Source: Actinomycetota bacterium (lineage in GTDB: Bacteria > Actinomycetota > Thermoleophilia > Gaiellales > Gaiellaceae). Taken from it: DNA of 35,583 nucleotides. The stretch covers positions 1 through 35,583 of the forward strand of contig JACDAN010000175.1 in NCBI GenBank assembly GCA_013695385.1. The letters run 5' to 3'. Below the pieces are notes generated by a model. That model did no database searches, was not told the origin of the DNA, and saw only the letters and a list, made by a program, of their open reading frames with translations. This document shows positions 19,441 to 23,239 of this stretch, piece by piece; within the stretch, counting starts at the first letter, position 1, and the number at the start of each line of letters is the position of its first letter. Made by a program: the position numbers and the translations under genes.

Positions 19441-19854
19441 TCAGGAGCGAATCGAGTAGATCTGGACGCCATCGATGACGCTCTCGAGCTCAGACCATGC
19501 ACGGTCCGCAGTCATCACGGGAAGCCCAAGCCGCATCCCGAGGGCTAGACAGGCGCGATCACCAAGACTGAGACCGCGGTCCTTCGTTGGGGGGCGCAGC
19601 TCGGCAATCGCGATCGCATCGTCGGTCGTCAGCGGCTCGACCTCGAGAAGGCCCCCGAGGATGCCTCGCGCTTCTAGCTCCCCGATGACCTGACGGGGAT
19701 CCGCTCCGTGGAGGGCGACCGTCGAAAGAGCCTCCGCAAGGTTTACGGTGCCGATCGTCCCGGTCTGCGCGAGCGCCTCTTCAACTTCAGAGCCTCCGTC
19801 CTCGTCTTGCAGGTATGCGAGAAGGCCGGACGCGTCGAGAACGAAGGTGCTCAA
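19441..19854 (-). CDS. PIN-domain VapC-like toxin
   Basis: MSTFVLDASGLLAYLQDEDGGSEVEEAL ... LSLGDRACLALGMRLGLPVMTADRAW. Confidence 0.88.
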   Translation of the reverse strand: MSTFVLDASGLLAYLQDEDGGSEVEEALAQTGTIGTVNLAEALSTVALHGADPRQVIGELEARGILGGLLEVEPLTTDDAIAIAELRPPTKDRGLSLGDRACLALGMRLGLPVMTADRAWSELESVIDGVQIYSIRS

Positions 19855-20132
19855 CTGCGTGCGAGCTGGACTGCGTCCTCGCGTTCGGCTTCTGCGCGGC
19901 GATCCTGTATGAGCTCACCTGCGAGATCAACCTCAGACGCGAGATCACGGAGTAGGCCGCGCCCGGACCGTGCAACGTCGACCGCTTTCCGAAGCTGAAC
20001 GGTGTCGTTGTCTCCTTCAACATCGAGGACAAGGACACCGCCTTGATCAACATCGAGGCAGCGGCGCACCCCCGCTGGCAAGACGAAACGACCTCGCTCG
20101 TCCACCTGAACCTTGTAGCGCTTATTGGGCAT
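19851..20132 (-). CDS. AbrB/MazE-fold antitoxin (VapB-like)
   Basis: YKVQVDERGRFVLPAGVRRCLDVDQGGVLVLDVEGDNDTVQLRK; overlaps VapC start by 4 nt. Confidence 0.85.
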   Translation of the reverse strand: MPNKRYKVQVDERGRFVLPAGVRRCLDVDQGGVLVLDVEGDNDTVQLRKAVDVARSGRGLLRDLASEVDLAGELIQDRRAEAEREDAVQLARS

Positions 20133-20259: not shown

Positions 20260-20484
20260 CTACCGAACTCGCGTGCGCCCGTCGTGAGTGGAGTCTTCGA
20301 GCAGCGCCAAGTAGTCGCGAACACGGATCACTGGCCGGCTGTAGCCAGGGAGAGCGACCACCGGGCAGGCGCGGAGGACGGCGTCGATAGCGCGCCGCTC
20401 GAGGCCGAGCTCGCGCAGGCGGCTTCGGTTGAGCAACGCGTCGGGGTTGGCGAGCAGCTCGGCGGCTGACGGGCGGACGCTCAT
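20260..20484 (-). CDS. excisionase/HTH-like small protein
   Basis: MSVRPSAAELLANPDALLNRSRLRELGLERRAIDAVLRACPVVALPGYSRPVIRVRDYLALLE; 4-nt overlap with ATPase ORF. Confidence 0.6.
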   Translation of the reverse strand: MSVRPSAAELLANPDALLNRSRLRELGLERRAIDAVLRACPVVALPGYSRPVIRVRDYLALLEDSTHDGRTRVR

Positions 20485-21389
20485 GTCGTCGGTGGGGTGT
20501 CGTGGGGGTTGACGACACCCGGAGCAGCCACAGTCGCGGTGTCGGGGGTGGGTGTCGTCATGGTGTCTCCCCTATAAGGGGACGACACCACGACACCCAC
20601 CTCCTCCGTTTCACCGGAAGCGCAGAAAAGTGGGGCGGTGTCGTCGGTGTCGTATGAGGCTGACGACACCCGCCAGCACTTCGCCGAGGGCTGCCTTCCG
20701 GACGGTCCAATGCGATGCTCGAGCAGGCCCTCGACCGTGAGCGCGTCGAGCATCGGCCGAATCGTCTTCGGGTCGGCGCCGATGCCGCCGTCCCCTTCCT
20801 TGCGCCGCAGTTCCGTCAGCGTTCGCCACTCGCCGTCGGCGAGCACGGCAAGGAGCTCGGCGCGAATGTCCCGCGTCTTGCCGTCGTTCGAGCCTTGTAG
20901 TAGGGGTCGAAGACGACGACCGAGAAGCCGCCGTCGACGGATCACTTGCTCGACTGCGGCAAGCTGCGCGTCGTCGGAGTCGAGCGAGAGGCCGTCGGGC
21001 ACGAGCGAGTAGCCGATCGCCTCCGACTGCTCGAGCCCTGCCTCGCGGAGCATCCGCTTCGCGTCGGCCTGCGACTGCTCGAGGTCGACGACGAGCGCCC
21101 TGATCTCGCCGGCGCCGTGCCAGTCGAGAAACTCGTTTCCCTGGACGCTCGCGGCGAGCAGGCGGGAGATCAGCGTCGACTTGCCTGCCCCGGTGTGGCC
21201 GAGCACGATCGTGCGAGCCGAGCGGACGATCAGCGGGCCAAGCAGCTCGTCGCCGTGCTCGGGATCGGGAAGCGCGCAAAGCTGACGGGCCGTCAGAACC
21301 TGGAAGATGGGCTCGGCGCCGCGCGCTTCGCGTACGAGCTTCGCGGGTCGCGGCGGTAGCCGCTCTCTCGGTCGAAGAGCAGTCCCCAC
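20481..21389 (-). pseudogene. RepA-like RecA-fold ATPase with C-terminal winged HTH, frameshifted and missing the middle of its ATPase domain
   Basis: Walker A VLGHTGAGKSTLISRLL; Walker B GGFSVVVFDPYYKA only in another frame at about 20893-20935; C-terminal LADGEWRTLTELRRKEGD...GLLEHRIGPSGRQPSAKCWRV. Confidence 0.65.
20548..20600. repeat. 53-bp imperfect palindrome built from GTGTCGTC/GACGACAC units
   Basis: GTGGGTGTCGTCATGGTGTCTCCCCTATAAGGGGACGACACCACGACACCCAC. Confidence 0.7.
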
Positions 21390-21667
21390 GCTTCGCCGAC
21401 GGGCAGGCGGCCGGCCCGATCTTTGAGGAACCGCAGCCGGGAGTAGCCGTCGGAGACGCGCTCGACCGCGACGATGATCTCGGCGCCGCGTACGGCTGCG
21501 CCTGAGCCAGCCAGGTCGTGGACCGTCAGCGCCGGTTGCACGCCGACGGGAGGCTTGCGCGGGTGGGCGCCGAGCACGAGCGCGAACTCGTGGCGGGCCC
21601 GGAGGCCGTCGAGCCGGCGCATCAGGTCGTCGATCTGGCGCTCGGCGTTCGCATCCTCGGCGCGGTG
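21293..21667 (-). pseudogene. detached middle segment of a RepA-like RecA-fold ATPase
   Basis: HRAEDANAERQIDDLMRRLDGLRARHEFALVLGAHPRKPPVGVQPALTVHDLAGSGAAVRGAEIIVAVERVSDGYSRLRFLKDRAGRLPVGEAWGLLFDRESGYRRDP. Confidence 0.6.
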
Positions 21668-21689
21668 AAGGAAAGGGCTGCGCTGGCCG

Positions 21690-22211
21690 TTGCCGGCGGA
21701 GAAGGCCGTGCGTGTCTGGGGTCTAGATCATTGGCCGTACACCGTCGACGTCGAGTTTGTGCAGGGTGACGGTGGCCCAGTTGCCACCGGGGTTCTGATC
21801 CGGCGGAACTTCGCTTACGACGAGCAGCAGGGCTTCGCCGACGGCTTGGAGCTCGTACCCGTTTCGGGCCGCGATGTACGGCGGATGCCGCTAGACAGGG
21901 TGATCGCGGCTGCGCTTGCCGCCGTCAGCGAGCCGTCTTCGGCCGAGGGCTGGGCCGGCCGTGTGGGGAAGGCAATCACCCCTCGCGGCTTGCCGGAGCG
22001 CGGCCGCTCGAGCAAGTTCTACGCCCAGATCGCCAACCTCTACCGGGAGCTGGCGCAGCGCGATGTCGCTTCCCCCGTCCAGGAAATCGCGCGGCGCAAG
22101 GGTGTTCCGCCGAACCGCGTACACCAGTGGGTGCATCGCGCCCGGGAGATGGGATTCCTCGAGCCGTCCGCGCGGAGTCGCCAGAGGAAGGGGCGGAACG
22201 GTGGCGAGTAG
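21690..22211 (+). CDS. HTH-containing hypothetical protein of the integrase operon
   Basis: SPVQEIARRKGVPPNRVHQWVHRAREMGFLEPS; overlaps integrase start. Confidence 0.65.
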   Translation: MPAEKAVRVWGLDHWPYTVDVEFVQGDGGPVATGVLIRRNFAYDEQQGFADGLELVPVSGRDVRRMPLDRVIAAALAAVSEPSSAEGWAGRVGKAITPRGLPERGRSSKFYAQIANLYRELAQRDVASPVQEIARRKGVPPNRVHQWVHRAREMGFLEPSARSRQRKGRNGGE

Positions 22212-23239
22212 CTGGATCGCGATTCGTGTCACGCGAGCGGGCGAGAAGCGCTACCGCGTCGAGTACCGCCTTGGTGGCCGCGAGGCTCCGACCCGCTACG
22301 CCGGTTCGTTCAAGACGAAGCGCGAGGCGCTCGCCCGCAAGGCGTACGTCGCCGGTGAGCTTGCCGCGCTGCGCATCCCCGAGCTCGCGACGCTCGAGCT
22401 GAAGCCGTCGTCGACGGTGGCCGCTGCCTGCGAGCGCTGGCAGGCGTCCCGTGTCGACGTTGCCGAGGCGACCGCGATCCAGCATCGAACGGCGGTCAAC
22501 CGGGCGCTGCCGATCCTCGGCGCCCGCCGCGTTGACGAGGTCAGCGCCCAGGACGTCGCCGATCTCGTCGCCGCCCTGCACGCTGCGGGCAAGGCTCGCG
22601 AGTCGATCCGCAAGACAAAGACCGCGCTCGGAATGGTCTTCGACCACGCCGGCGTGAGCCCCAATCCGGCCCGTCATCCGAGCGTGAAGCTTCCGCGGGA
22701 AGAGGCCGAGGAGCCGAGCCCGCCCCCCGGCCGCTCACCTGGAGGCCGTCTACCGGCTGCTGCCGACGAAGCACCGCCTGCCGTTCCTGTTTCTCGACTG
22801 GTCTGGTGCTCGCGTGAGCGCGATCGACCTGACGCTCGTCGGCGACTACGACGAGCAGCGTCGGCGCATCCGGCTCCGGAAGGCGACGACGAAGACGCGG
22901 GCGGCGCTCTGGATCGAGCTGCATCCCGTGCTCGCCGATGCGCTCGAGCAGGAGCTGGGGCCGCGTGAAGACCGCGACCCCGGTCGGCGGCTGTTCGCGG
23001 GGAGCGGCGCCGATGCGCTGCGCACGTCGATCGCGAAGGCGTGTCGGGCGGCTGCGATTCCGCTGTTCAGCCCGCATGACCTGCGGCACCGCCGCGTCAG
23101 CCTGCTCCACCTTCGCGGGGTTCCGTGGGCGCGGATCGGCGAGCAGGTAGGCCAGCGCAACCTCGCGGTGACCGCGAACACCTACAGCCACGTGCTCGCC
23201 GACGAGCGTGAGCTCGACTACGCGGAGCTGCTCGCGTGA
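22201..23239 (+). pseudogene. tyrosine recombinase (phage integrase), frameshifted at C6 tract 22722-22728
   Basis: N-terminal SAM-like domain in one frame, catalytic domain (GARVSAIDL, HDLRHRRVSLLHLRG, TANTYSHV) in another; removing one C restores PSPPPAAHLEAVYRLLPTKHRLPFLFLDWSGARVSAIDL. Confidence 0.85.

Follow-up and report, generated by a model that had tools for sequence, protein, structure and literature searches.

An apparent relocation of the middle third of a probably dead phage-type ATPase gene in a decaying integrated element of an Actinomycetota genome

On the minus strand of an Actinomycetota contig (JACDAN010000175.1; assembly GCA_013695385.1), an ATPase gene at 21667-20481 reads in an unusual order: the middle third of the gene (segment B) stands at the front, followed by the part that carries the Walker motifs (segment A) and then by the C-terminal tail (segment C). 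How does a gene come to read B-A-C? Is this a working protein of a new kind, two decayed copies of an ordinary gene, a fault of the assembly, or a single gene broken and rejoined in the cell? We addressed these questions in a window of 35,583 nucleotides, the whole stretch of DNA that was analysed.

The closest cellular relative of the gene encodes an intact 399-aa protein on contig PMNA01000005.1 of the Actinomycetota MAG fen_453, from the same taxonomic family (G036, identical to L028). When this protein (L028:3001-4200) was compared with the window by tblastn, it matched in four pieces, without overlap and each found once, which span the relative from residue 24 to the HTH region. Residues 159-271 lie at 21667-21329 (-) (E = 2e-35), residues 24-146 at 21296-20928 (-) (E = 9e-30), residues 148-158 at 20923-20891 (-) in another frame (an 11-residue Walker B piece, SVVVFDPYYKA; E = 0.16), and residues 279-335 at 20846-20664 (-) (E = 3e-8). 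The B-A-C order on the minus strand is thus as the original prediction described it. Segment B (21335..21667, minus strand, 333 bp; HRAEDANAERQ...AHPRK...YRRDPRSS) shares 56-57% identity with the G036 protein over residues 159-271. Segment A1 (20937..21335, minus strand) is a truncated N-terminal part with a match to AAA_25 and with the Walker A motif GHTGAGKS (GxxxxGK[S/T]) at about 21200-21177; it is 43-48% identical to its relatives (44% for G036). Segment A2 (20891..20935, minus strand) holds Walker B (DGGFSVVVFDPYYKA) and is shifted in frame relative to A1. Segment C (20484..20888, minus strand, with the stop at 20481-20483) appears to be the winged-helix-like tail of the relatives, running into a low-complexity C terminus; the tail resembles that of the G036 protein in sequence, with 39% identity over 62 residues (residues 279-335). 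Third-position GC is 0.88 in B, 0.87 in A1, 0.93 in A2 and 0.79 in C, and coding periodicity is kept in the expected frames. The proposed derivation from an AAA_25/RepA-like ATPase holds: the frame that joins A to C matches AAA_25 at 1.9e-10, and the intact relative matches RSF1010 RepA (1g8y) at 1.4e-5.

Is the order Walker A, Walker B, middle and HTH, taken as canonical at the outset, in fact the order of this family? The closest relatives number nine, namely, the bacterial MAG and eight IMG/VR viral contigs, and all nine read A-B-C in one open frame (A1-A2-B-C in G036, where the neighbourhood differs). Seven of the viral relatives (L173-L179) were found in viral contigs with the G036 query, and L186 was added from an alignment of those seven. 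These phage primase/helicase-type ATPases (PHROG 239, which the ATPase here also matches) are 49-65% identical to segment B and have a similar C-terminal tail; unlike the gene studied here, all are canonical and unbroken. Two of them, L174 and L176, carry an N-terminal Toprim domain, so the family also occurs as primase-helicase-like fusions, and this fits the PHROG 239 match. Each of the eight viral relatives passes from its A2 alignment to its B alignment with no residue in between; the G036 protein aligns to B from residue 5 of that segment onward, which agrees with a boundary at this point. As had been foreseen, FDPYYKA connects to HRAEDANAERQ without a gap, in the manner of the close relatives. 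Against the G036 protein, the more distant L022, L023 and L024 each aligned as a single collinear match, and the relatives in phage and plasmid records, all of them distant, likewise matched as one collinear stretch. The original prediction had named intact permuted homologs as evidence of a real family; a search for them found none in genomes sampled at three overlapping levels (129 from the order, 399 from the class and 397 from the phylum) and none among viral contigs, phages or plasmids. The broken open reading frames of the window, used as queries against the genome contigs and viral contigs, retrieved no relative, whereas the intact G036 query succeeded. A structure prediction for the G036 protein (pLDDT 37.8) was left out of use.

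The upstream segment B is exactly what the A-C frame lacks, with nothing duplicated or lost at the A|B boundary. The suggestion that the middle piece appears to have moved upstream is borne out. The original prediction also allowed for a duplication in tandem, which would here involve A-B and be followed by deletions at two places, or for two gene copies that have both decayed. Decaying elements often undergo both duplication and deletion, and a duplication would place B upstream of A and could account for a lost 5' end. However, the sequence deleted from one copy would then have to match precisely, at each end of B, the sequence retained in the other, and no residual long duplicate remains in the region or the genome: we found no second copy of the ATPase in the assembly and no long repeat within 19-24.5 kb. 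Because B is complementary at both ends and a second copy is missing, moving a single fragment, or misassembling it, requires fewer coincidences, and we consider the duplication route, now the less supported of the proposals, improbable.

Could the pieces nonetheless work as they stand, as a split or permuted ATPase or as a gene unscrambled by programmed DNA rearrangement? In favor of such an arrangement, the A-C frame (20481..21389, minus strand) is open over 302 aa, and B lies in a frame that, counted from an internal ATG, continues for 109 aa without a stop. The A-C frame begins with a GTG in a non-coding frame of B, and it stays open because a +1 shift and the loss of 331 nt cancel. The shift, one extra base at 20936 (minus strand), falls between ...VEQVIR and DGGFSVVVFD, somewhere within CGTCGACGG. 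Between the flanking conserved residues, the codon count is that of the eight relatives plus one base, so the +1 frameshift precedes Walker B; the claim that Walker B lies in another frame is confirmed by this 1-nt excess. In consequence of the shift, VVVFD, although downstream of Walker A, is out of frame with it, Walker B is read wrongly in the A-C frame (as LRPLLQG), and the middle segment is absent from that frame. The B frame, for its part, has no proper start, continues into unrelated residues and meets a stop about 40 nt past its junction with A; B and A lie in different frames, so that no single open frame joins the segments. That junction and Walker A are separated by 45 codons. The first ~40 of these include no ATG, GTG or TTG, and the earliest such codon is a GTG immediately ahead of Walker A. 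Among the nine relatives, the most distal codon upstream that could serve as a start is at least 55 residues before Walker A, a candidate start only, since some relatives also have nearer ATG or GTG codons. Judging from these codons, the native start of the scrambled copy appears to be lost.

Neither fragment can form a complete ATPase. The locus is most likely a pseudogene derived from the AAA_25/RepA-like family and not a working member of it, because the middle segment (AHPRK and its surroundings), which should follow Walker B in one chain, lies upstream of Walker A and in a separate frame. With all relatives canonical, the neighboring integrase broken and no plausible start for the A-C frame, we regard a working arrangement as very unlikely. 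The more specific idea that recombination at the GCTC(G) ends of B reassembles the gene, as a bacterial programmed rearrangement switch, seems to us barely credible.

The ATPase gene most likely sits in a decaying integrated phage-like element, as the presence of an integrase gene alongside this phage-related replication gene indicates. The tyrosine integrase (22204..23239, plus strand) is identified by matches to Phage_integrase (E 4.6e-7), Phage_int_M and PHROG 1, and it is broken by one extra C (+1) in the C6 run at 22723-22728. Its relative in viral contig L181 (IMGVR_UViG_3300047160_008163) is intact at 350 aa and is 78% identical in the C-terminal part and 56% in the N-terminal part. A small protein of the element (20260..20484, minus strand) is 59% identical to the protein directly before the L181 integrase; here it lies on the strand opposite the integrase with the ATPase in between, so the module arrangement differs from that of the related element. 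Thus, the L181 element resembles ours in the integrase and the small protein, but its integrase is intact, it has no match to A, B or C, and another gene stands upstream. The protein encoded at L181:2265-3548 is a different one, of 428 aa, in which a P-loop-like sequence (recognized by eye) is accompanied by a C-terminal HTH domain. Between the ATPase and the integrase of our window lies a divergent gene for an HTH protein (21669..22211, plus strand; first listed start TTG 21690), which abuts the junction upstream of B; its homologs align over internal or C-terminal parts only, and its 5' end may be affected too. The best direct repeats shared as candidate attL/attR are 12 nt long and chance-like. 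Adjoining the element, 19441-20132 (-) encodes a protein with a PIN domain (Pfam E 1.4e-9) and a partner that weakly resembles MazE/AbrB; the two are likely a toxin-antitoxin pair.

The scrambled order implies three junctions. At the first (J1, 21668..21669), upstream DNA (CCCTTTCCT) meets the start of B (TCACCGCGCC); at the second (J2, 21334..21339, with the break at 21335/21334), the end of B (GAAGCTCG; GCTCG at 21339-21335) meets A (TACGCGAAGC); and at the third (J3, 20889..20893), A is joined to C at GCTCG. The sequence GCTC occurs at both ends of the segment missing from A-C, giving a 4-bp microhomology at J3, and when random deletions were simulated in this sequence, 3.3% of them showed microhomology of at least 4 bp. 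The J3 junction sequence had no match in viral contigs.

Are these junctions real? The main rival to a rearrangement in the cell is a local misassembly, in which the true gene reads A-B-C, and is perhaps intact, while the short B was misplaced in scaffolding or gap closing. The assembly is fragmented (292 contigs, 2.34 Mb), the B-A-C order occurs in no relative, and a misplaced contig would fit the exact, duplication-free cut-and-paste of 333 bp. Metagenome assemblies do contain local errors that reads fail to support, with IDBA-UD under particular suspicion (curation review, PMC7111523). However, the error would have to create three separate junctions, with intervals of about 334 and 445 nt between them, no more than some 5 nt of common sequence and no Ns, so that a read-overlap error of the assembler is no obvious cause. 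It would also not account for the 5' end of the gene, which seems to be missing too, or for the integrase, which is broken independently 1.4 kb away. The host genes of the window (MFS, UvrD, GNAT, AAA, aminotransferase, DUF2332 and BrkB) are unbroken. When the window and roughly 508 kb more of this genome were set against 1.6 Mb from a relative with a single contig, none of the 97 matched genes sampled from this assembly was permuted, and scrambling is thus no general fault of the assembly. Five two-piece matches among the sampled genes were considered as frameshifts and proved, on inspection, to be wrong-frame extensions of reference ORFs. On balance, we view misassembly as possible.

In total, these observations favor relocation of the middle third of a phage-type ATPase gene, now dead, within a decaying integrated element, a reading to which we assign a probability of about 0.58, as a matter of judgement and not of computation. 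Further lesions in the same element support it (the +1 in the ATPase, the +1 in the integrase and the lack of a plausible start), although a cluster of lesions would also be expected where an assembly has poor support. We infer that the rearrangement is present in the DNA of the cell and that end joining, Ku-dependent or microhomology-mediated, produced it. The genome encodes Ku (E 1e-43), and end joining is thus plausibly available to the cell. In the proposed mechanism, the ancestor would have been an ordinary phage-type replication ATPase, a RecA-fold AAA_25/RepA-like domain followed by a winged-helix tail, in the order A-B-C. Local breakage and rejoining would then have released B (333 bp) and reunited A with C at the GCTC microhomology; B, its orientation unchanged, would have been captured again at the 5' end of the gene or close to it, parting the gene from its native start. 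We also considered that excision and reinsertion were conservative and took place at a 2-bp TC core. Such an event would account for J1, J2 and J3 alike, but it would give the ATPase no start codon and is not preferred.

How does this locus compare with known systems? With the AAA_25/RSF1010 RepA-like hexameric helicase ATPases (PF13481; 1g8y), it has Walker A, Walker B and the middle RecA-fold segment in common; it differs in the B-A-C order, the frameshift before Walker B, the lack of a plausible start and the spread over several frames. The fen_453 gene has homologous segments (57% identity in B) but is intact, in the order A-B-C, and stands in another neighbourhood. In the literature on intragenic relocations, we found nothing directly comparable.

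The locus reveals no new protein architecture. It does carry a caution: draft genomes can hold locally scrambled genes, and automatic annotation would present this one as a shorter ATPase. Taken at face value, it offers a well-resolved example of the death of a phage gene in a bacterial chromosome, possibly by way of fragment relocation through end joining.
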